NCBI GenBank assembly: GCA_021739645.1
Contig: JAIPBL010000001.1
Span: 124,001-188,000, forward strand
From: Saprospiraceae bacterium
Lineage (GTDB): Bacteria; Bacteroidota; Bacteroidia; Chitinophagales; Saprospiraceae
Length of the DNA: 64,000 nucleotides
Reading direction: 5' to 3'
Positions within the stretch are counted from its first letter, which is position 1. Every line of letters starts with the position of its first letter. The notes beneath the pieces were generated by a model, which was not told where the DNA came from, did not search any database, and saw only the letters and a list, made by a program, of their open reading frames with translations. This document shows positions 1,766 to 13,745 of the stretch, in pieces. A program made the position numbers and the translations under genes.

Positions 1766-3076
1766 ATGATTGCAAGCAAAACCAAAAGTGAAGAGCTACT
1801 GGACAGGCGGAGGTCTGTCGTAGCCAGTGGGGTTGGGCTGTTCAATGCGGCCACTGCTCAATCTGCCAAAGGAGCCATCGTCGTCGATGCCGATGGCAGG
1901 GAGCTGATTGATTTTGCAGGAGGTATCGGCGTTGTAAATGCTGGCCACTGTCCAGACTCCGTCGTCGAGGCCATCATCGAACAGGCCCGTAAATTTATCC
2001 ACACCAGTTTCAACGTGACTACTTACGAGCCGTACATCGCCCTATGCGAAAAGCTGGTCGAAATACTGCCGCACGATGGCCCCACGAAGGTCATGTTGGC
2101 AAGCACGGGTGCCGAGGCAGTGGAAAATGCCATTAAGATTGCCCGGCAGGCAACGCACCGTGATGGCATACTTTGCTACACCGAAGCATTTCATGGCCGT
2201 ACCATGATGGCCATGACCCTGACCTCCAAAGTGGCTTATAAAATGGGTTGTGGGCCGTTTGCGCCGGAAGTTTACCGAACCGCCTTCCCGAACTATTATC
2301 ATTATGGGACTGGGATTGATGAAGACACATTTGCCACGCAGGAGCTTTACCGCTTGGATGAATACTTGAAAAGCAATGTTGGCCCTGAAGACCTCGCAGC
2401 TATCATCATCGAATTGGTGCAGGGAGAAGGAGGTTTTAACGTTGCACCGAAAAAATATGTGCAAGGCTTGCGTAAGCTCTGCGACCAATATGGCATCATG
2501 CTCATCTTCGACGAGGTGCAGAGCGGATTCTGCCGCACCGGAGCTTGGGGTGCTTACGAGCATTTTGGCGTACTCCCCGATATTTCCACCTGGGCCAAAT
2601 CAATGGGCTCGGGCATGCCAATAGCCGCCGTAATAGGGCGAGCCAAAGTGATGGACGCTGCTGGGCCTAGTACCATTGGCGGCACTTACATCGGCAATCC
2701 CGTTTGTTCTGCCGCTGCATTGGCCACCATCAAGTTCATGGAGGAAAATGACCTCAACGCCAGAGGTGTGGAAGTTGGGAATATTGTGCGAGAACGATTC
2801 GAACTCATGAAATCTCGCTATCCTTCGATTGGGGATGTCCGCGGACTAGGCGCCATGATGGCGATGGAGTTTGTGAAAAATGGTGACCCGCTCCAGCCGG
2901 ATGGTGATTTGTGCATACGGATAATGGAGGGCTGTTTGAAGAATGGTCTGATAATCATAAACGCTGGCACTTACAAAAATATACTGAGGTTGTTATCGCC
3001 ATTGGTCATAACAAACGAGCAACTCCATAAAGGACTTGACATCCTAGAGACTGAAATTCAACGAGCAACTAACTAA
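1766..3076 (+). CDS. gabT: Class-III aminotransferase, probable 4-aminobutyrate aminotransferase
   Basis: 436 residues, full length for the class-III omega-aminotransferase family (fold type I PLP enzymes). Visible landmarks are the PLP phosphate site STGAEAVENA (about 113-122), AFHGRT (141-146), IIIELVQGEGG, FDEVQSGF with Asp249, and the Schiff-base lysine in WAKSMGSGMP (Lys278). The sequence most resembles GABA transaminases, which move the amino group of GABA to 2-oxoglutarate and give succinic semialdehyde. A succinate-semialdehyde dehydrogenase ends the same gene run at 11534, which supports that reading. First gene of the probable six-gene amine operon. Other omega-amino acids or putrescine could also be substrates. 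Confidence 0.85.
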   Translation: MIASKTKSEELLDRRRSVVASGVGLFNAATAQSAKGAIVVDADGRELIDFAGGIGVVNAGHCPDSVVEAIIEQARKFIHTSFNVTTYEPYIALCEKLVEILPHDGPTKVMLASTGAEAVENAIKIARQATHRDGILCYTEAFHGRTMMAMTLTSKVAYKMGCGPFAPEVYRTAFPNYYHYGTGIDEDTFATQELYRLDEYLKSNVGPEDLAAIIIELVQGEGGFNVAPKKYVQGLRKLCDQYGIMLIFDEVQSGFCRTGAWGAYEHFGVLPDISTWAKSMGSGMPIAAVIGRAKVMDAAGPSTIGGTYIGNPVCSAAALATIKFMEENDLNARGVEVGNIVRERFELMKSRYPSIGDVRGLGAMMAMEFVKNGDPLQPDGDLCIRIMEGCLKNGLIIINAGTYKNILRLLSPLVITNEQLHKGLDILETEIQRATN

Positions 3077-3160
3077 TTGAGAATTGAAAATGGAGAATTC
3101 AAAGTGAAGCATATATGCCTTGGATTTTCAATTTTCAATTTTCAATTTTCAATTAAATAA
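3077..3160. repeat. TTTTCAA tandem repeat between gabT and the nitrilase gene
   Basis: The 84-nt gap contains four consecutive TTTTCAA/TTTTCAATT units (about 3124-3153), preceded by inverted versions (GAATTGAAAATGGAGAATTC). Such short AT-rich tandem runs recur between genes in this window. The tract could fold back on itself; it contains no gene. Confidence 0.55.
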
Positions 3161-4015
3161 ATGAAGCCATTTTCAATTGCCGGCATCCAAATGCCCGTTT
3201 CTGCCATCCATAGCAATATTCCTTTGATGAAAATCAAGCTGGATGTGCTGATGAGCGTATTTCCTTGGGTACAGATGGTCGTGTTCAGCGAGCTTTGTGC
3301 CTTTGGGCCACTTAAAAAAAATGCCATGGCACTACCCAATCAATATGAAGCTGGGTTTCAGGCATTGGCCAAAAAATATGGTATTTGGCTCATACCTGGT
3401 TCCATGTTCCAGCTTTGGGAAGGGAAGATATACAATACCGCAAGGGTCATTAACCCACAAGGCGAAATCGTGGGACGATATGCCAAGATGTTCCCTTTTT
3501 ATCCATACGAAGAAGGTGTGACCGCAGGCAGTAATTTCCTGATGTGGGATGTGCCAAATGTCGGGAAATTTGGAATTAGCATCTGCTACGATATGTGGTT
3601 TCCAGAGACCTCTCGTACCATGGTTGCCAACGGGGTGGAAGTAATCATTCACCCAACATTGACAGGCACATTGGACCGGGAAGTTGAGCAATCCATCGTG
3701 ACAGCTACCGCCGCTATGAACCAATGCTATGTAATTGATGTGAACGGTTTGGATGCAGGTGGAAATGGGCGTTCATTATTCGTTGACCCCGATGGGAGGG
3801 TGATTTGTCAGGGTGGCACAACCCCCCAGCTTATGCCTATTGAAATAGATTTGGGACTGGTGCGGCGCAGACGAGAAAGGGGCATACTGGGCCTTGGTCA
3901 ACCACTAAAAAGTTACCGTGACAATACCGTGCATTTCGATGTTTATGACCGAGGAGTAAGGCATCCATACCTCGATTCATTAGGAGCATTAGAAAAGCCA
4001 AAAAGACCGATATGA
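3161..4015 (+). CDS. Carbon-nitrogen hydrolase (nitrilase superfamily)
   Basis: 284 residues, normal for the family. The catalytic triad is visible: Glu44 in VFSELCAFGP, Lys109 in RYAKMFPFYPYEEG and Cys142 in ISICYDMWFPE. These enzymes hydrolyse amides, ureides or nitriles through a Cys thioester. It is cytoplasmic with no signal peptide. Its place between a GABA aminotransferase and an amino-acid decarboxylase-like gene suggests an amide made from an amine or amino acid as substrate. N-carbamoylputrescine amidase (AguB) is one possible relative, but the sequence is not a clear AguB match and no agmatine deiminase lies nearby. Substrate unassigned. Confidence 0.8.
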   Translation: MKPFSIAGIQMPVSAIHSNIPLMKIKLDVLMSVFPWVQMVVFSELCAFGPLKKNAMALPNQYEAGFQALAKKYGIWLIPGSMFQLWEGKIYNTARVINPQGEIVGRYAKMFPFYPYEEGVTAGSNFLMWDVPNVGKFGISICYDMWFPETSRTMVANGVEVIIHPTLTGTLDREVEQSIVTATAAMNQCYVIDVNGLDAGGNGRSLFVDPDGRVICQGGTTPQLMPIEIDLGLVRRRRERGILGLGQPLKSYRDNTVHFDVYDRGVRHPYLDSLGALEKPKRPI

Positions 4016-4107
4016 TTGTGATATCATTGAATTGCTTTTTTACTGATAAGCTATTCAACACCAAAAGAAAATCATATTGCAATATAACATTTTAGCAACT
4101 CATAATA

Positions 4108-6867
4108 ATGACTAAAATAAAACCGACCACTGCCTTACATATAAATATTGGTCAGCTCAGGATTGATACCTGGAATTCCTTGAAGAATGAGGCTGCCAAG
4201 CTTGCCACCTCAGAAAAAGGAACAGCAGACTGTAAAAAACACCTCAATTCTGTCGAAGACTCACTCAAGCGACTGGGCAATATCGAGCGTTATTTTGCAT
4301 TCCCTGGTTTTCCTAACCTAATGTCACTGAAAGAAACCTGTAAGCAGGGCGAGTACGTGTCTTTGTTGAGAAAAACAAATGATGTAGTCCAACTCTTGGT
4401 TAGTGATGCCTACCGGAATGGCGCCACCTTGGAAGGTGTCAACGATTGGGTGAAAAGCTCCAAGAGGAGCGGAATCAAAAAGACGAACATAGCTGCTGAA
4501 AAGAATTATTTTGAGGTACTTTTCGTGGAAGACCTTTCCGAAGTCGCCGAGACAGAATTGCGCCAACGTTTGCTGGAGTTACAGGATAAAGACGAGCAGT
4601 TTGTTTACCGCTTAATTGTAGTGCCTTCTTTTCAAGATGCCCTCATCGCATTATCGTTCAACCATAATATCCAATCGGTGGTGGTACGCTATGGCCCGGT
4701 TTTTTACTCCAAACACATTACGACACTTATTCAGCCTTTTATTGAAAATGTATTGAAAATTGACCTGTCGGAACAGTTGGAGTCGGACTTAGGGCCATTA
4801 CTAGGAAAATATATCCGGCAATTCCGGCCCGAGTTGAATACATATTATATTACCGATACGGCACTCACCCATTTGAAAGATTCAACGCTCAATAATTTTA
4901 ACCGCATATTTTATAGAAAAGAAGATGTTCAGGAGTTACATTTGAGTATAATAGGAGGAATTAGTGAGCGATTTAAGACACCGTTTTTTTCTGCACTTGT
5001 AGATTACAGTAAAAAACCGACGGGTGTTTTTCATGCCATGCCGGTATCACGAGGCAACTCGGTTTTTAAATCAAATTGGATAAAAGATTTTGGTAGATTT
5101 TATGGCAGGAACATGTTCCTCGCTGAGACTTCTTCTACCACTGGCGGCCTCGATTCGCTGTTGCAGCCCACAGGGCCACTGAAAAAGGCGCAAGAAATGG
5201 CGGCCAAAGCGTATGGCTCGGAATATACTTTTTTTGTCACCAACGGTACATCTACCGCCAATAAAATTGTACAGCAAGCCCTGGTTGAGCCAGGCGATGT
5301 CGTATTTATTGACCGGGACTGTCACAAGTCGCATCATTATGGTTTGGTGCTGGCTGGCGCATTTCCAGTTTACCTGGATTCTTATCCAATCCAAGAATAT
5401 TCGATGTACGGCGCCGTGCCTTTGAAGGTAATAAAAGAGAAGTTGTTGGAGATGAAGGCTATTGGGAAGTTGGACATGGTGAAAATGCTGCTGCTGACCA
5501 ATTGCACCTTTGATGGCCTTGTTTACAATGTTGAAAAAGTAATGGAGGAAGTGTTGGCCATCAAGCCGGACATGATTTTTCTTTGGGACGAGGCATGGTT
5601 TGCATTTGCAGGTTTCACTTATACCTATAAGCAGCGCACTGGCATGTTTGTCGCAAAAAAATTATACGCCAAATACCATAGTGAAGCATATAAGCTTAAA
5701 TATGAGAAACATGTAAAATCGCTTGCCGCGGGCGAAACAGCAACTTTACCTAACCCTGATAAAGTTAAAATAAGGGTTTATTCCACCCAGAGCACGCACA
5801 AGACGCTCTCAAGTTTCCGGCAGGGTTCCATGATACATATTTGGGACGAAGACTTTCAACGTAAAACAACCGATGCTTTCCATGAGGCATATATGACGCA
5901 TACTTCCACTTCGCCGAATTATCAAATATTGGCTTCGCTGGATGCAGGTAGGCGGCAAGTGCAGTTCGAGGGCTATGAACTGGTGGAGAAAAGTATTGAG
6001 ATGGCGATGGTCATGCGGGCAAAAATCAATGACCACCCTTTGCTGAAAAAATATTTCGAAGTTCTGACCATTAAGGACTTAATTCCCTTGGAATATCGGG
6101 GAACCGGAATCAGTGAATATTACAGTCCAAAAGATGGTTGGACACGGATGGAGGAGGCTTGGTCGCAGGATGAATTTGCGCTCGACCCCACCAAAATTAC
6201 GCTTTCGGTGGGCAAGGCTGGTATTGACGGCGATACGTTCAAGAATGAGTACCTGATGGACCAGTTTAACATACAGATTAACAAGACCTCCCGCAACACC
6301 GTGCTATTGATGACCAATATTGGTACCACTCGCAGCTCAGTTGCTTACTTGATGAATGCACTTCTGATAATCGCCAAACAATTGGACGAAAACTTCCGGT
6401 CACTGAACCAAAAGGAGTTGGAGATTGCGGAAAAACGCATCCACTCCTTGATGGAAGAGTATCCGCCACTGCCCGACTTCAGCCATTTTCACCATGCTTT
6501 CCAGGCAGGCCCGGACATACCGGGAGGCAATATTCGAGCAGCCTACTTTCTTTCTTACCATGAAGATGAGTGCGAGTATGTACCGCTCGAAAACTGTTTG
6601 GATACTTTCAAAGATGGACGAGAACTGGTTTCAGCGTCTTTTGTCATTCCCTACCCACCGGGCTTTCCCGTATTGGTGCCTGGGCAAGTAGTTAGCGAGG
6701 AAATCATTCATTTCATGCTGGCATTGGATGTTTCGGAAATACATGGCTTCCGTCCTGAGCTTGGGCTTAAAATTTTTACTGCTTCAGCCATTAGTAATCG
6801 AGACAAAGTGACTGGAAATGGCGTAGTAAAAAAGGAAGCCATGAAAGCAATAGCCAATAAAAATTAG
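4108..6867 (+). CDS. Large PLP enzyme related to Orn/Lys/Arg decarboxylases
   Basis: 919 residues, longer than the usual 700-760 of the acid-inducible Lys/Arg/Orn decarboxylases. Residues 1-300 form an N-terminal region, part of which (about 130-210, LFVEDLSEV...VVPSF) resembles the receiver-like wing domain. The fold-type-I PLP core starts near AETSSTTGGLDSLLQPTGP. It shows FVTNGTS (377-382), RDCHKSHHYG with the ring-stacking His (406), LWDEAWF with Asp494, and the PLP lysine in STQSTHKT (Lys565). The expected reaction is decarboxylation of ornithine, lysine or arginine to a di- or guanidino-amine, but related aminotransferase-like chemistry cannot be excluded. Third gene of the operon, 92 nt after the nitrilase gene. 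Confidence 0.75.
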   Translation: MTKIKPTTALHINIGQLRIDTWNSLKNEAAKLATSEKGTADCKKHLNSVEDSLKRLGNIERYFAFPGFPNLMSLKETCKQGEYVSLLRKTNDVVQLLVSDAYRNGATLEGVNDWVKSSKRSGIKKTNIAAEKNYFEVLFVEDLSEVAETELRQRLLELQDKDEQFVYRLIVVPSFQDALIALSFNHNIQSVVVRYGPVFYSKHITTLIQPFIENVLKIDLSEQLESDLGPLLGKYIRQFRPELNTYYITDTALTHLKDSTLNNFNRIFYRKEDVQELHLSIIGGISERFKTPFFSALVDYSKKPTGVFHAMPVSRGNSVFKSNWIKDFGRFYGRNMFLAETSSTTGGLDSLLQPTGPLKKAQEMAAKAYGSEYTFFVTNGTSTANKIVQQALVEPGDVVFIDRDCHKSHHYGLVLAGAFPVYLDSYPIQEYSMYGAVPLKVIKEKLLEMKAIGKLDMVKMLLLTNCTFDGLVYNVEKVMEEVLAIKPDMIFLWDEAWFAFAGFTYTYKQRTGMFVAKKLYAKYHSEAYKLKYEKHVKSLAAGETATLPNPDKVKIRVYSTQSTHKTLSSFRQGSMIHIWDEDFQRKTTDAFHEAYMTHTSTSPNYQILASLDAGRRQVQFEGYELVEKSIEMAMVMRAKINDHPLLKKYFEVLTIKDLIPLEYRGTGISEYYSPKDGWTRMEEAWSQDEFALDPTKITLSVGKAGIDGDTFKNEYLMDQFNIQINKTSRNTVLLMTNIGTTRSSVAYLMNALLIIAKQLDENFRSLNQKELEIAEKRIHSLMEEYPPLPDFSHFHHAFQAGPDIPGGNIRAAYFLSYHEDECEYVPLENCLDTFKDGRELVSASFVIPYPPGFPVLVPGQVVSEEIIHFMLALDVSEIHGFRPELGLKIFTASAISNRDKVTGNGVVKKEAMKAIANKN

Positions 6868-6929
6868 ACATTACCTTTCAAATATTTCTACAATAATATT
6901 CAACAATTTAAATCAATAAAATAATATAA

Positions 6930-8579
6930 ATGAGTACGACTAATTCAACCGTTAATCCTCCAAAAAAAGCCGTTAAAAAGGTTAATACTACTGCTAAATC
7001 AGCTGCCAAGCCGGTAGCAAAACCAGCTGCTAAATCAGATGCTATTCAATTAGTAAAGGCCGTGGCTAAACCTGCTGTGAAAACAACAGTAAAGCCTCCC
7101 CAAAAAGTATCGACAAGGCCATTGAGCGGCATATCCGATATCCGACGTTTTTTCTATAGAAATGAAACACCGATTTATTTCATAAGTGCTACCAACTTCA
7201 ACCTACTGGGTGCCGACGAATGGATTAAGGGATTTAAGTTCATCACTTATATTGAGTGTTTTGACGGCCTTCACTCCAACGTTTTTTCACCAAAGGAAGA
7301 ACTGCCACATGAAGAGTTCCAAAGTATTGAGGACATCAATAATTACCTGCTGCAACACCCGGAGGTGATTGAGTATATCAAGAAAAACAAGAAAAAAGGC
7401 GAACAGGACAAGGTGCTTTTCCTCATGTTCGATGATAAAACCGAGGCACTTGCCAAGAAATTGGGTCTGGAAATCATGTTTCCTTCTGCCGAAATGCGAA
7501 ACTTCATGGACAATAAGGTGAACACCAACCGCATCGCTGAGAAAGCGGGCGTGCCTTGTGTGCCTTATGTGCTTTCCAATGTGAAGGACTACAAGCATTT
7601 GCGGAGTGTGTCCAAAAAATTAGGCGAGCACCTCGTTATCCAATCGCCTTATGGAGACTCTGGCCACACCACGTTTTTTATCTCAGATGAAAAGGATTAC
7701 AAAAAGTATGCGGAGGAGATAGAAAAGGAAAAAGAGGTGAAAATCATGAAGCGCATCAATTGCCGTGGCTCGGCCATCGAAGCCTGTGTGACACGCCATG
7801 GAACCGTCGTTGCTCCGCTGATGACAGAATTGGTTGGGTTCAAAGAACTGACGCCGTACAAAGGCGGCTGGTGTGGAAATGAAATTTATGCGGGTGCTTT
7901 TACACCTGAAATCAGGGAAAAAGCCAGAAAATACACGCAGCTTTTTGGCGACCAACTGCGCAAGGAAGGCTACAAAGGCTATTTCGAGCTGGACTTTTTG
8001 ATCGACCAGGACGACCAGAGCGTTTACCTTGGCGAGCTGAACCCAAGGGTCACGGGCGCCAGTTCCATTACCAACCATGCGGTATTTGCCCTTTCCGATG
8101 CACCACTTTTTATCTTCCACATCCTCGAATGGATGAACCAAGAATATCAACTGGATGTGAACGCGCTCAACGAACGTTGGGGCAATCCTGACAATATTGA
8201 TTCCTGGAGCCAACTCGTGGTGAAGCACACTGAAGACAGTATCGAATATGTGACGGAAGCGCCCCGCTCAGGCATTTGGCGGCTGCAGGATGACGGCTCC
8301 ATGTTGTTCGACCGGATGGACACCCACCGTCGGTACGTTGAGTTGGACCAAGAGGCATTTTTTCTTCGAATCACCCGTAAGGGCGACTACCTGTACGAAG
8401 GTGCCGACATGGGCATTCTCGTGATGCGTGGCCGTTTGATGACCGATGATTTCAAACTGACCCCAAGGGCCGAAAAATGGATAAATGCGGTTCGTCAAAA
8501 CTACCAATCCGTGCCACCAGCCAAGCCTGCTGAAATAGCGGAGCGGGTTGCTGAGTCAGGTGGGTTTAAGTACATGTAA
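6930..8579 (+). CDS. ATP-grasp ligase with Lys/Ala/Pro-rich N-terminal tail
   Basis: 549 residues. Residues 1-60 are a low-complexity Lys/Ala/Pro/Val tail of AKPA-type units, unlike the rest. The remainder is an ATP-grasp enzyme: an ATP-binding stretch near LGEHLVIQSPYGDSGHTTFF, then MKRINCRGSAIEACV, FELDFLIDQDD and the metal-binding YLGELNPRVTGASSITN. Automatic annotation would probably say biotin carboxylase, but the family includes carboxylate-amine ligases that make amide bonds, and there is no biotin carrier here. Given its neighbours (decarboxylase, amidohydrolase, Ntn amidase) I infer amide-bond formation on an amine; the substrate is unknown. Cytoplasmic. It starts 62 nt after the decarboxylase gene. 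Confidence 0.7.
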   Translation: MSTTNSTVNPPKKAVKKVNTTAKSAAKPVAKPAAKSDAIQLVKAVAKPAVKTTVKPPQKVSTRPLSGISDIRRFFYRNETPIYFISATNFNLLGADEWIKGFKFITYIECFDGLHSNVFSPKEELPHEEFQSIEDINNYLLQHPEVIEYIKKNKKKGEQDKVLFLMFDDKTEALAKKLGLEIMFPSAEMRNFMDNKVNTNRIAEKAGVPCVPYVLSNVKDYKHLRSVSKKLGEHLVIQSPYGDSGHTTFFISDEKDYKKYAEEIEKEKEVKIMKRINCRGSAIEACVTRHGTVVAPLMTELVGFKELTPYKGGWCGNEIYAGAFTPEIREKARKYTQLFGDQLRKEGYKGYFELDFLIDQDDQSVYLGELNPRVTGASSITNHAVFALSDAPLFIFHILEWMNQEYQLDVNALNERWGNPDNIDSWSQLVVKHTEDSIEYVTEAPRSGIWRLQDDGSMLFDRMDTHRRYVELDQEAFFLRITRKGDYLYEGADMGILVMRGRLMTDDFKLTPRAEKWINAVRQNYQSVPPAKPAEIAERVAESGGFKYM

Positions 8580-8764
8580 TAAATTGCAACTGCCGTTTTT
8601 TTGGCAGTAAGTGAATAAAATAACTGTTACTTCCCTGTGTTGTTGCGAGCTTCTGTTTTGTTTCATTTTTGAAATAAGGCAGCAAAGAGGCAACATAGGG
8701 GAGTATCGGTTGTTTCGACTAACTGGATACCCAATCAAGCCGCACAAAATTCAACGGAAGTTCA

Positions 8765-10009
8765 ATGCAATTAACGTTCAATGCCATCTCTGAGCCAACC
8801 CAGCCAGGCCCGAAATGGCAGAAATTGTTCAATATTTATTGGGCGGCCTATCACGCTTGGTACGCTTCGAAAGGAGTTGCCTACACGCCAAGCCTGGGCA
8901 TTTCACAAGCTGCACTGAAGCGCCACATGCCAGGGATGTGGCCAACTTACGAGCGGCTTTGCGAATTGGCGGGCAATAGCGAGGTAGCGGCACGCTTCCT
9001 CACCGGATACCAGCCACCAGCATACATCAGCGGCTGCTCCCAAGCGGTCTTAGCTTTGGGAACGGTGCAGCTTGTCCGCAATTACGATTACCACCCCGAC
9101 CTCATTGAAGGGACACAAATACTCACCGCCTGGAACGGTAAAAAAGTGATTGGCAGCAGTGATTGCTTGATAGGCTTACTGGACGGCATGAACGAGGATG
9201 GCTTGGCCATTTCCCTCACTTTTGGTGGCCGCAGGGTCGTTGGCGAGGGGTTCGGCATCCCATTTATTTTGCGTTATGTCCTGGAGTTTTGCTCCACAGT
9301 AGAAGAAGCCGTTGAAACGCTGACCCGTGTACCTTCTCACATGTCTTACAATGTCACAGTGATTGACCGCAGCGGTGACTTTAAGACCGTACAATTGGCG
9401 CCCGATAAATCGCCGCTAATCACTGATGCAACGATGGCCACCAACCATCAAGGAGTCGTTGACTGGCACGAAAACGCACATTTCAACAAGACCGTTGAGC
9501 GGGCTGTCTTTTTGGAAAACATGCTATCGGAAGACTGCCCCGATGGTACTGCGGCCATCGCTGCCTTTCTGCAGCCGCCGCTCTACAACACCCGTTTCCG
9601 GGAAGGTTTTGGCACGCTTTACACTGCCGTTTACCACCCAATGGAAGGCTCCGTACAAATGCACTGGCCCACTGAAGATTGGCTGCAAACTTTTGATGAT
9701 TTTCGGGAAGGAGAAAGGCTGATTAAGTTTAGTCAAAACGTACCGGCTGTTCAAAGCGATGCACGGACTAGCACACCTACCATGGCCTCAGATGAAAGCT
9801 ATCAGCCTGAAACGGCATTGCTGGATTGGCAGGAAACAGTTGCGGAGTCTTTGGTAGCGTCCATGACAGAACCCAATTCCCCTAAATCCAATAAGCTCTT
9901 GAAAAATTTGCGGAGCGAAATCAAGCGTCGTGGTCAAATTCCTTGGGAAATAGTGTCGGATTTTTGGTCCGACTTGAACAAGAAATATAGCCAGAAATGG
10001 CGGAAGTGA
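8765..10009 (+). CDS. C45-family Ntn hydrolase (penicillin acyltransferase-like)
   Basis: 414 residues, resembling the acyl-CoA:6-aminopenicillanic acid acyltransferase family. Members mature by autocleavage before a Cys that becomes the N-terminal nucleophile. Here this is probably Cys91 in YISGCSQAVLALG, followed by the typical LVRNYDYHPD. Further family features are GLLDGMNEDGLAISLTFGG, VLEFCSTVEEAVETL, MSYNVTVIDRSGD and ATNHQ. Chemically it is an amidase or acyltransferase. No signal peptide, so it probably acts in the cytoplasm with its operon partners. It could remove the group added by the ATP-grasp enzyme, in the role PuuD plays in the gamma-glutamyl-putrescine route (inference). The C-terminal 90 residues are extra and polar. 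Confidence 0.75.
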   Translation: MQLTFNAISEPTQPGPKWQKLFNIYWAAYHAWYASKGVAYTPSLGISQAALKRHMPGMWPTYERLCELAGNSEVAARFLTGYQPPAYISGCSQAVLALGTVQLVRNYDYHPDLIEGTQILTAWNGKKVIGSSDCLIGLLDGMNEDGLAISLTFGGRRVVGEGFGIPFILRYVLEFCSTVEEAVETLTRVPSHMSYNVTVIDRSGDFKTVQLAPDKSPLITDATMATNHQGVVDWHENAHFNKTVERAVFLENMLSEDCPDGTAAIAAFLQPPLYNTRFREGFGTLYTAVYHPMEGSVQMHWPTEDWLQTFDDFREGERLIKFSQNVPAVQSDARTSTPTMASDESYQPETALLDWQETVAESLVASMTEPNSPKSNKLLKNLRSEIKRRGQIPWEIVSDFWSDLNKKYSQKWRK

Positions 10010-10070
10010 ATTTGTCAAAGAATCCTAATTATTCACCTGAACATGAATTCTCGCTAAAAATAATTCAAGC

Positions 10071-11534
10071 ATGATTTTAAAGAACAAAAACCTTCTCAGG
10101 GACAAAGCATTTTTTGACGGACATTGGGTCGATGCATATAGTGGTAATACTTTTCTCGTCACCAATCCATACGATGGTTCCCATATCGGTCAGGTGCCAG
10201 ACTTGGGCGCTGCCGAAACCAAAGCTGCCATTGGTGCTGCCGCAAAAGCCTTCCCAGCTTGGCGGGACAAAACCGCTGCTGAGCGTGCCAATATTTTGAA
10301 AAAATGGTACGCCCTGCAAATGGAAAACCTTGACGACCTCGCTGTGATTCTTACTTCCGAACAGGGAAAGCCACTGGCCGAGGCCAGGGGCGAAATCCGT
10401 TACGGTGCCTCTTTTGTGGAGTGGTTCGCCGAGGAAGCAAGGCGGGTGTATGGCGATGTCATCCCCGGTCATGGAAAAGGATTGAGAATTATGACCATCA
10501 AGCAGCCGATTGGTGTAGCAGCGGCCATCACGCCTTGGAATTTCCCGAATGCTATGATAACCCGAAAAGTCGCACCGGCACTCGCTGCTGGCTGCACGGT
10601 GGTCATCAAACCCGCAGAAGACACGCCGCTTTCGGCACTGGCGTTGGCCGTATTGGCAGAAGAGGCAGGCTTTCCGCCGGGCGTACTCAACATTATCACG
10701 ACTAGCCATGCACCGGAGGTTGGTAAAGAACTGACCGACAACCCGCTTGTGAGGAAACTCTCATTTACAGGCTCCACCGAAATTGGCAAACTATTGATGG
10801 CGCAATGTGCGGGTACGGTAAAAAAACTGTCGCTGGAGCTTGGCGGGAACGCCCCGTTCATCGTCTTCGATGACGCAGACCTCGACGCTGCAGTTGCTGG
10901 CGCCATCGCTTCAAAATACCGCAACGCCGGTCAGACCTGTGTTTGTGCCAATCGCATGTATGCTCAGTCGGGCATTTATGAAAAATTCACCCAAAAGCTC
11001 GCCGAAGCGGCCAGTCAACTCGGTGTGGGTAATGGCATGGAAGATGGCATAGAAATCGGCCCACTCATCAATGTGGAGGCTTTGGAAAAAGTGGAGCGAC
11101 TAATGAAAGATGCCACAGATAAAGGGGCAAAAGTGCTCACGGGTGGCAAGCAAAAGACCATCGTTGGTAATGGCTCTTTTTACGAACCCACTGTACTGAC
11201 TGGTGTACTGCCCAGTATGGAAATTAGCTCTGAGGAAATTTTTGGCCCTATTGCTCCAGTTATCAAATTTGAAACAGAGGAAGAGGTCATCCGACTAGCA
11301 AACGATACGCCGTTCGGCTTGGCATCCTACTTTTATGGGAGGGACTACGCCAGAATCTGGCGGGTGGCCGAAGCACTGGAGTACGGCATGGTCGGCATCA
11401 ACACTGGGATGATTTCTACTACCGTGGCCCCATTCGGCGGGGTGAAGCAAAGCGGCTTTGGGCGGGAAGGCTCGAAGTACGGCATGGATGATTTTTTGGT
11501 GATTAAATATTTGTGTTGGGGCGGCGTGGAGTAG
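10071..11534 (+). CDS. gabD: Succinate-semialdehyde dehydrogenase, NAD(P)-dependent
   Basis: 487 residues, standard length for class I/II aldehyde dehydrogenases of the GabD/Sad type. Landmarks are the cofactor motif FTGSTEIGK (232-240), the general base Glu256 in LSLELGGNAP, the nucleophile Cys290 in NAGQTCVCANR, and SEEIFGPIAPV with the C-terminal FGREGSKYG. The neighbouring Cys292 matches the CVC pair that acts as a redox switch in some SSADHs. It oxidises succinic semialdehyde to succinate and so would complete GABA use begun by GabT at 1766. It begins 61 nt after the C45 gene on the same strand, so it is probably the last gene of the operon. Confidence 0.87.
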   Translation: MILKNKNLLRDKAFFDGHWVDAYSGNTFLVTNPYDGSHIGQVPDLGAAETKAAIGAAAKAFPAWRDKTAAERANILKKWYALQMENLDDLAVILTSEQGKPLAEARGEIRYGASFVEWFAEEARRVYGDVIPGHGKGLRIMTIKQPIGVAAAITPWNFPNAMITRKVAPALAAGCTVVIKPAEDTPLSALALAVLAEEAGFPPGVLNIITTSHAPEVGKELTDNPLVRKLSFTGSTEIGKLLMAQCAGTVKKLSLELGGNAPFIVFDDADLDAAVAGAIASKYRNAGQTCVCANRMYAQSGIYEKFTQKLAEAASQLGVGNGMEDGIEIGPLINVEALEKVERLMKDATDKGAKVLTGGKQKTIVGNGSFYEPTVLTGVLPSMEISSEEIFGPIAPVIKFETEEEVIRLANDTPFGLASYFYGRDYARIWRVAEALEYGMVGINTGMISTTVAPFGGVKQSGFGREGSKYGMDDFLVIKYLCWGGVE

Positions 11535-12773: not shown

Positions 12774-13745
12774 TTAATCAAAGAAAACAAGCAAAAGCGT
12801 TGCAGTTAAATAAACAGCAAGGAAAAAGGCCGCCATTTTCCGTTCTCTAATTTTCAGCTGGTGAAGGTCAAGTTCCTTTTTCTTGAATCGTTGAAGTTTA
12901 TTGCCGGTGAGTATGAGTTGGAACATCACCGCTGCAATCAATCCATAGGCGAGCAGGTAAATTTTGTCCATCAAAACCATATAGCCCACGTCCGGCAGGG
13001 CGTCTGCGTAACTCTGTTGGAGGAAAACGGCGGTGAGCAGACTCCCGACCGGCAAACTGATTCGAGCATCCACGTAACTTGGAAAGAAAAGCAGTGCGCC
13101 CAAGGCTGCGAAGATGACAACGGTAAGTGGCAGCAATAATTTCAGCACAAAATAACTTACCGGACGGGTGATGCTAAAACGAAAGACGAAGTTGGAGAAA
13201 TTGATGGCAGGATTGTCAGGGTTGCCGAAGTCGGTTTCATAGTTGTGTGTTTTTGTCAAAAGTTCGGCACCCAGCAGTTCCCAACCAGCCAAGGCCAATT
13301 CTGGTCGGTAGTAAATGGGGGATGAGGTGGTGTCCTTTACAAAAACAAGTTCCCTTGCAGGGTAATCCGGATGCTCCAAGTGCAATTCGAGCGGATGTCG
13401 GTCCAATGGGAAACGCTGCAATTCAAACGGATGAAAGAACCTGCCCTCCACTCGGAACCCTTGATATTTCCAGCCGCCGTCCAGCAGAATGATGGTGTCC
13501 TCAAAAGGCTCTTGGGTCATGCCCCATTTCTCCACCATGTTCACGAACTCAATGCCTGTGGGGTCAATTTCTCCTTTCCATTTGAACCAGACATAGAAAT
13601 CAGCATAAAAACTGTTCTCGTCCAAGTTCAGGTCATACAGGTTCATCAAATAAACCCCAGTGAGCACCTGTTCCGGTTTCGATGCTCTAACGAAGCTCGT
13701 GAAAAGTCCCAAAAAGACCAGTAAATACAGGCATTTTCGTTTCAT
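12774..13745 (-). CDS. Pentameric ligand-gated ion channel homologue
   Basis: 323 residues, the size of bacterial GLIC/ELIC-type channels. Residues 1-21 are a signal peptide. The extracellular/periplasmic beta domain (about 25-195) contains the conserved FPLDRHPLELHLEHPDYP (112-129), which corresponds to the Cys-loop region; the two Cys are absent, as in prokaryotic members. Four membrane segments follow: M1 about 198-221, M2 about 228-248 (ISLPVGSLLTAVFLQQSYA), M3 about 254-279 and M4 about 304-322. A short basic M3-M4 loop (LQRFKKKE) replaces the long eukaryotic loop. It should form a ligand- or proton-gated pore in the inner membrane; the ligand is unknown. The Bacteroidota host is notable. 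Confidence 0.85.
   Translation of the reverse strand: MKRKCLYLLVFLGLFTSFVRASKPEQVLTGVYLMNLYDLNLDENSFYADFYVWFKWKGEIDPTGIEFVNMVEKWGMTQEPFEDTIILLDGGWKYQGFRVEGRFFHPFELQRFPLDRHPLELHLEHPDYPARELVFVKDTTSSPIYYRPELALAGWELLGAELLTKTHNYETDFGNPDNPAINFSNFVFRFSITRPVSYFVLKLLLPLTVVIFAALGALLFFPSYVDARISLPVGSLLTAVFLQQSYADALPDVGYMVLMDKIYLLAYGLIAAVMFQLILTGNKLQRFKKKELDLHQLKIRERKMAAFFLAVYLTATLLLVFFD

Follow-up and report, generated by a model that had tools for sequence, protein, structure and literature searches.

A six-gene operon was identified in a stretch of 64,000 nt from a Saprospiraceae bacterium (contig JAIPBL010000001.1, positions 124,001 to 188,000; hereafter the window). The best overall explanation of this operon, to which we assign a probability of roughly 40 %, is a conserved route in which a ligase, a decarboxylase and amidases lead into gamma-aminobutyrate (GABA), which is then converted to succinate. 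The more general proposition that an amide is formed and then hydrolysed on the way to GABA is probable. The six open reading frames (ORFs) occupy window positions 1766-11534, all on the + strand, with gaps of 84, 92, 62, 185 and 61 nt. An initial annotation of the window had described six genes on one strand with a longest gap of 185 nt, and the ORF coordinates and family matches bore this out. The genes, with scores and model cut-offs in bits, are as follows.

1766..3076, +, GabT-like class III aminotransferase (GabT), 436 amino acids (aa); Aminotran_3; TIGR00700 485.8 (cut-off 506.65); HGRT motif at 143
3161..4015, +, nitrilase-superfamily amidase (nitrilase), 284 aa; CN_hydrolase 108.5
4108..6867, +, atypical ornithine/lysine/arginine (OKR)-decarboxylase-fold enzyme dependent on pyridoxal phosphate (PLP), here termed DC, 919 aa; OKR_DC_1 (PF01276) 263; key residues Lys565 (PLP), Asn725 (LdcI Glu526 position), Arg729 and Gln860
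6930..8579, +, ATP-grasp ligase-like enzyme, 549 aa; NF005096 786.5 (cut-off 684)
8765..10009, +, C45-type N-terminal nucleophile (Ntn) amidase (C45), 414 aa, nucleophile Cys91; NF040521 163 (cut-off 85)
10071..11534, +, succinate-semialdehyde dehydrogenase (SSADH), 487 aa; TIGR01780 717.5 (cut-off 646.35)

Named genomes were scanned with the ATP-grasp protein and the best 80 of 189 loci with a relative were kept. By title these were mostly Bacteroidota, with a few metagenome-assembled genomes of Ignavibacteria, Balneolaceae, Calditrichaeota and Acidobacteria. Only loci with enough contig sequence on the relevant side were counted, and aldehyde dehydrogenase genes were sought up to 4.5 kb downstream. 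Upstream of the ATP-grasp gene and on the same strand, DC was present in 63/63 loci, the nitrilase in 56/57 and GabT in 54/55; downstream, C45 was found in 56/74 loci and an aldehyde dehydrogenase in 50/64. Among 48 loci with sufficient sequence to either side, 47 carried GabT, nitrilase and DC together, 39 an aldehyde dehydrogenase in addition, and 31 both an aldehyde dehydrogenase and C45. At least one amidase gene was present in all 57 loci with at least 6 kb upstream. The initial annotation had proposed co-occurrence in other Bacteroidota as a check, and the gene set passed it: because the genes, their order and their strand recur in relatives, the six genes are a conserved operon, beyond chance. 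Divergence of DC, ATP-grasp protein, nitrilase and GabT was correlated across 56 loci (r 0.69-0.86, with no housekeeping-gene control), which fits a block inherited together, yet may only mirror species descent. Within a sample of 296 Bacteroidota genomes the ATP-grasp family is rare and all-or-nothing, with four matches over the cut-off (786-825 bits) and a next best match of 41.7 bits. DC was detected at E <= 1e-80 in five of these genomes, including all four ATP-grasp carriers, and the fifth copy (genome G192) is broken off by a contig end on the side where the ligase would come. Searches of open-licence PMC papers, screened by titles and the starts of abstracts, listed none that dealt with this operon.

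DC possesses the fold and PLP lysine of the basic amino acid (OKR) decarboxylases, but not the glutamate at the position of LdcI Glu526. It resembles LdcI and AdiA in fold, in the PLP lysine motif STHK and in a DEAW/DSAW-type motif, and differs from them in this residue and in its longer N-terminal part. In the alignments, window Asn725 stands opposite LdcI Glu526, where the AdiA and LdcI chains have Glu. Glu526 is given, from docking, as a probable lysine-binding residue of LdcI in an excerpt of a published study (PMC5607190). Asn725 was invariant in 77/77 aligned DC proteins, as was the PLP lysine Lys565; the PGE motif read PGQ in 76/76 proteins with a residue aligned there, and Arg729 was present in 76/77. 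Among solved structures the best match was Rv2531c of Mycobacterium tuberculosis (PDB 9n0n/9n0o/9n0p; E 2.9e-238). Residues 12-900 of the 919 in DC, almost its entire length, align with this protein, which has the same Asn and PGQ, but carries Ile in place of Arg729. An excerpt of a 2026 review describes the structure of Rv2531c as known and its activity as not clarified (PMC12910592). Since the Glu526-type residue is replaced by Asn, and PGE by PGQ, a substrate with a free cationic side chain appears unlikely for DC; taken with the gene neighbours of some plasmid relatives described below, a neutral or acidic substrate appears likelier. The proposal in the initial annotation that DC makes an amine from ornithine, lysine or arginine was therefore not supported, and the Asn replacing Glu526 led us to discard an ordinary decarboxylase of this kind.

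The ATP-grasp protein was also considered as a possible biotin carboxylase with a carrier partner elsewhere, which the initial annotation had named as an outcome that would refute its proposal. The NCBIfam model NF005096 is indeed called 'biotin carboxylase', and a Foldseek search with an AlphaFold2 model (mean predicted local distance difference test (pLDDT) score 70) returned biotin carboxylases first, at 12-14 % identity. Against this, the only Pfam matches on the protein were ATP-grasp_3 and CPSase_L_D2, with no match to the biotin carboxylase C-terminal domain in the Pfam scan, and PDB profile matches were weak and mostly covered about 100 residues of biotin carboxylase. The catalytic segment reads ELNPRVTGASS (E369-L-N-P-R373-V-T-G-A377), in place of the biotin carboxylase counterpart, NTRIQVEH, so that the catalytic Gln and Glu of that enzyme are replaced. 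The operon contains no biotin carrier or carboxyltransferase, the search for one having been confined to the operon. A biotin-dependent carboxylase step was set aside on the motif, domain and identity evidence, and we consider it extremely improbable. An L-amino-acid ligase (3vot) appeared at rank 44 in the Foldseek results (TM 0.62 by target length), and we predict with moderate confidence, from sequence and model, that the ATP-grasp protein is an amide-forming ligase. Its N-terminal tail (residues 1-60, window 6930-7110) is K/A/P-rich, modelled with low confidence and variable in length among relatives. A C-terminal tail resembling it was seen in the VOC protein of some relatives (L004 6621-7130; L006 505-1017; L numbers denote loci).

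Both amidases retain their catalytic residues. Across 68 aligned nitrilase sequences, Lys109, Cys142 and Glu149 were invariant and Glu44 was present in 67, the remaining one having a gap there. C45 scored as a member of the C45 Ntn family with a predicted nucleophile, Cys91, that was invariant in 34 sequences, and the best fold match of its model (pLDDT 87) was the precursor of isopenicillin N acyltransferase (2x1c). The best named model for the nitrilase was AguB, at 64.8 bits against a cut-off of 410.25, so it does not qualify as an AguB equivalog. This bears on an agmatine route, in which arginine or ornithine is decarboxylated in the ordinary way, the nitrilase acts as N-carbamoylputrescine amidase and the ATP-grasp protein and C45 are passengers. 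That AguB is the nearest named model and that DC has the OKR fold speak for such a route; the low AguB score, the loss of the Glu526-type residue in all 77 proteins and the constant company of DC and the ATP-grasp protein, which is hardly a passenger, make it very unlikely. C45 was missing downstream of the ATP-grasp gene in 18/74 loci, and when 13 genomes with a C45-less operon were searched with a C45 profile, 12 gave no match and one a weak match (33.6 bits), with 4/4 controls found. C45 was thus rejected as an obligatory uncapping partner in Bacteroidota, where the nitrilase is the near-constant amidase and C45 is facultative. In the 12 plasmid loci described below, C45 followed the ATP-grasp gene in every case (as a fragment in L101); the nitrilase lay near it in seven (L089, L090, L093, L094, L096, L102, L103) and was not near it in the five rhizobial loci (L091, L092, L095, L101, L119). 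The presence of two amidases in one operon, which the initial annotation had left unexplained, is in part accounted for by this distribution. In two loci a protein of about 233 aa occupies the usual place of C45 between the ATP-grasp and aldehyde dehydrogenase genes (L018 11475-12173; L077 2088-2795); the one of these two that was scanned had no Pfam family.

GabT scored just under the TIGR00700 cut-off, and the HGRT motif was found in 51/56 operon GabTs. The proposed role of this enzyme is conversion of GABA to succinate semialdehyde, and together with SSADH, which exceeded its cut-off, it points to a GABA-to-succinate end such as that of the GABA shunt and of the Puu pathway. A VOC-fold protein of about 135 aa was noted in L005 (6454-6858) and 51 other loci; of the 57 loci with enough sequence, 48 encode it between the nitrilase and DC. 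It was not at this position in the window, L001 or L003, whose genomes held matches of 44-50 % elsewhere.

The computation shows the protein families, the catalytic residues, the gene linkage, the missing Glu526-type residue and the presence of an amidase gene in every locus with room. The most economical reading is that an amide is formed and hydrolysed before GabT and SSADH act. The initial annotation had likened the operon to the Puu pathway in this respect, and that part is supported; the lack of an oxidase is a difficulty for a strict Puu analogue. The two resemble each other in ATP-dependent amide formation and amidase release ahead of the passage from GABA through succinate semialdehyde to succinate. 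They differ in that the operon ligase is of the ATP-grasp type and not the glutamine-synthetase type of PuuA (a check limited to the operon), that no PuuB FAD oxidase was found among the operon and scanned flanking ORFs, that the amidases are of the nitrilase and C45 types and not the class-I amidotransferase type of the hydrolase PuuD, and that the operon holds a decarboxylase without the Glu for basic side chains.

A specific order of steps can be suggested tentatively, with slightly less confidence than the overall explanation. The ATP-grasp enzyme would attach an amine or amino acid, X, to glutamate at its gamma-carboxylate, and DC would strip the alpha-carboxylate from gamma-glutamyl-X to give gamma-aminobutyryl-X, its substrate thus being an alpha-amino acid whose side chain is no free amine. 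The nitrilase and, where present, C45 would cleave this omega-aminoacyl amide into GABA and X, after which GabT would form succinate semialdehyde and SSADH would oxidize it to succinate. We infer the substrates, the step order and the partner X. The gamma-glutamyl route would use each gene once and need no oxidase, and it would fit the GABA-type GabT and SSADH, a DC without the Glu526-type residue and the tie between DC and the ligase in Bacteroidota. A related logic occurs in formation of the butirosin side chain, where the ATP-grasp protein BtrJ loads the glutamate. A precedent for the second step is BtrK, an enzyme of another fold, which decarboxylates glutamyl-BtrI to GABA-BtrI according to an excerpt of PMC7857480. 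The likeness of the gamma-glutamyl route to BtrJ/BtrK would lie in decarboxylation of a ligase-made glutamyl conjugate to a GABA conjugate; the differences are that BtrK has an alanine-racemase fold and works with a carrier protein, whereas DC has the aspartate-aminotransferase (OKR) fold, no carrier was seen in the operon and its end is catabolic.

Versions of the gene set were also found on plasmids in other lineages, with 32 plasmid records matching the ATP-grasp protein and 12 loci read. Roseobacter ponti carries a PuuR-like regulator, gabT, nitrilase, DC, ATP-grasp and C45 genes and a peptide-type ATP-binding cassette (ABC) importer; here gabT exceeded the TIGR00700 cut-off (542.8 bits), and the regulator was nearest PuuR, below its cut-off (135.6 versus 211 bits). 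Cupriavidus oxalaticus and Pseudorhodobacter have the nitrilase, DC, ATP-grasp protein and C45. Cupriavidus necator pBB1 has an ABC importer, nitrilase, ATP-grasp protein and, directly after the latter, C45 (44 %, tblastn), with GabT (43 %) and SSADH (58 %) about 17 kb from the cluster. In Shinella, Roseateles XES5 and Sinorhizobium RAC02, a divergent nitrilase and Lrp precede a permease, an agmatinase family protein, a 2-ketoarginine-type decarboxylase, an aldehyde dehydrogenase, the ATP-grasp protein, C45, a D-amino acid dehydrogenase and an Orr-like racemase (393 bits versus a cut-off of 480). These three clusters are about 90 % identical and represent one lineage. Enzymes of the ketoarginine/D-arginine pathway thus share an apparent operon with ATP-grasp and C45 genes on Shinella-type plasmids, although none of that pathway's own enzymes occurs in the window operon. 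No DC match was found on the plasmid records of Shinella, Sinorhizobium RAC02 and C. necator pBB1 (chromosomes were not searched), and on the Roseateles plasmid the DC match lay about 550 kb from the ATP-grasp gene.

Beside ATP-grasp and C45 genes, the Shinella-type clusters also encode an alternative path that takes a basic amino acid to an aldehyde with one carbon fewer, and this favours a different route in which a diamino acid is capped. Of the readings considered, this one comes nearest to the proposal of the initial annotation. Here the ATP-grasp enzyme would acylate the omega-amine of ornithine (or lysine) and DC would decarboxylate N-acyl-ornithine; GabT and aldehyde dehydrogenase would take N-acylputrescine to N-acyl-GABA, the nitrilase or C45 would uncap it, and GabT and aldehyde dehydrogenase would act again. 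A neutral capped side chain would fit a DC without the Glu526-type residue, the PuuR-like regulator of Roseobacter ponti agrees, and FigC, of another fold, is an N-citryl-ornithine decarboxylase according to the same excerpt (PMC7857480). The capped route nevertheless demands double duty of GabT and aldehyde dehydrogenase, with a GabT of GABA type and no oxidase, and the arginine genes of Shinella appear to form a full set that needs no cap. Ornithine moreover has an ordinary route, because ornithine aminotransferase was found in 33/34 operon genomes. On balance we regard capping as unlikely, if the strongest of the alternatives. An arginase family gene was present in 34/34 operon genomes; as hints of an ornithine substrate, this and the ornithine aminotransferase were dropped as not informative without a matched Bacteroidota control set.

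Rhizobial plasmids carry DC, ATP-grasp and C45 genes, together with a peptide ABC importer in L091, L092, L095 and L119 and glutamate dehydrogenase in four of the five loci (L091, L095, L101 and L119; not seen in L092). L091, L092 and L095 encode a NylA-like amidase, of which L119 has a fragment. Genes for a NylB-like serine hydrolase were found in L091, L092 and L119, the L095 stretch ending before its place. In L091, the only locus tested, the best solved matches were NylA for the amidase (E 9.5e-74) and NylB for the serine hydrolase (E 4.5e-62). Some rhizobial clusters lie no more than about 10 kb from nif or fix genes. NylA and NylB hydrolyse amides of omega-amino acids, and the presence of their relatives and of glutamate dehydrogenase in these loci counts in favour of the route into GABA preferred here. 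The co-location of NylA/NylB relatives and an importer with DC, ATP-grasp and C45 genes (L091 15159-23806, L092, L095, L119) raises the possibility of a rhizopine-like compound and of a natural function for the nylonase families. Two further ATP-grasp genes were noted. One (L101 4542-5819, - strand) is flanked by two glutamate-dehydrogenase-like genes close to a rhizobial cluster, and its product has the L-amino acid ligase C-terminal domain LAL_C2. The other, an additional and shorter ATP-grasp-like gene on a Rhizobium plasmid (44 % over 330 aa; L119 13652-14638, + strand), separates the ATP-grasp gene there from C45.

Six plasmid relatives of DC that lack an ATP-grasp neighbour were examined. 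Four of them, 42-44 % identical to DC, adjoin aspartate-alanine antiporter (AspT) genes, in Ensifer adhaerens, Rhodobacter, Phyllobacterium and Ensifer canadensis (L099, L104, L105, L106); in the one locus tested the antiporter scored 641.7 bits with TIGR03802 (cut-off 546.95). No AspT gene lay beside the relatives in Roseateles (L097) and Sinorhizobium meliloti (L100), which are 48 % and 51 % identical. The AspT neighbours favour acidic substrates in that DC group. Its members form a clade of their own, with fixed active-site motif differences, Q561N and Y605Q (27 versus 4 sequences), so the inference of acidic substrates does not transfer cleanly to the operon DC. In L106 the AspT-flanked DC relative also lies near an aspartate 4-decarboxylase, and L099, L104, L105 and L106 may hold acidic-amino-acid decarboxylase/antiporter systems.

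Such substrates would suit a plain GABA shunt, in which DC is an unusual glutamate (or aspartate) decarboxylase. The ATP-grasp protein, nitrilase and C45 would then serve a side branch in which GABA is conjugated and set free again, with storage, export or signalling as the purpose, much as Ebony and Tan conjugate and deconjugate beta-alanine in insects. Besides the four antiporter loci, one of which also has SSADH and an omega-aminotransferase, this explanation gains from the Asn/Arg/Gln set shared by two aligned AspT-linked DCs (L099, L104), from GABA being the metabolite common to the DC clusters and the Shinella arginine cluster, and from glutamate dehydrogenase near the rhizobial clusters. 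Co-expression of the ligase with the amidases would, however, create a futile cycle, DC and the ligase go together in Bacteroidota, and the antiporter argument is weakened by the two relatives without AspT and by the separate clade. We therefore hold the side-branch explanation to be improbable, slightly more so than capping. A search for PF00282, meant to reveal an ordinary glutamate decarboxylase, gave matches in 31/34 operon genomes, but was discarded because this family is too broad to discriminate.

Several points weigh against the gamma-glutamyl route and the explanation built on it. Substrates of the three central enzymes are predictions, and Foldseek placed biotin carboxylases ahead of the L-amino-acid ligase, albeit with a model of only moderate quality. 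Plain glutamate or aspartate as the DC substrate would likewise be compatible with Arg729 and with the AspT genes beside some relatives. The route would consume ATP on the way to GABA, whereas ordinary glutamate decarboxylases need none to make it. Its fit is poorest for the Shinella-type clusters and C. necator, where the ligase has no adjoining DC; as three of four DC-less plasmid loci had no DC on the record, the ligase may work without it. Finally, only in the window and L001, whose SSADHs are 88 % identical, is the aldehyde step firm. Elsewhere the aldehyde dehydrogenases belong to other subfamilies (27-37 % identical), and two of the three types found in relatives reach no family cut-off, with best matches to SSADH models for one and to lactaldehyde dehydrogenase for the other, so that the aldehyde is uncertain there; in 14/64 loci with room no aldehyde dehydrogenase was found.

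A wider and more doubtful form of the proposal is that this is an unrecognized route, in which the ligase would make a gamma-glutamyl-type or N-acyl amide, an OKR-fold decarboxylase would need a conjugated, non-basic amino acid, the amidases would free GABA, and the versions on nodulation plasmids, which neighbour nylonase relatives, would produce or consume omega-aminoacyl amides of this kind. To our knowledge, DC would be the first OKR-fold decarboxylase to need such a substrate. If the proposal is true, it describes a way into GABA by a non-homologous ligase, decarboxylase and amidase, provides a substrate for a DC subfamily that has structures, including the orphan mycobacterial relative, corrects the 'biotin carboxylase' label of the NF005096 family, and assigns a natural substrate class and role to nylon-oligomer hydrolase relatives on nodulation plasmids. 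The three central enzymes look, from their sequences, like soluble proteins amenable to assay.

About 1.2 kb past the operon, the window encodes a pentameric ligand-gated ion channel homologue (12774-13745, - strand). As it had no match at E 1e-4 in 119 fetched loci, with the window as positive control, its proximity to the operon is possibly due to chance. No Pfam family matched it, and its best solved matches were a GABA-A chimera, ELIC and GLIC (E 2.6e-11), of which ELIC responds to GABA and primary amines.

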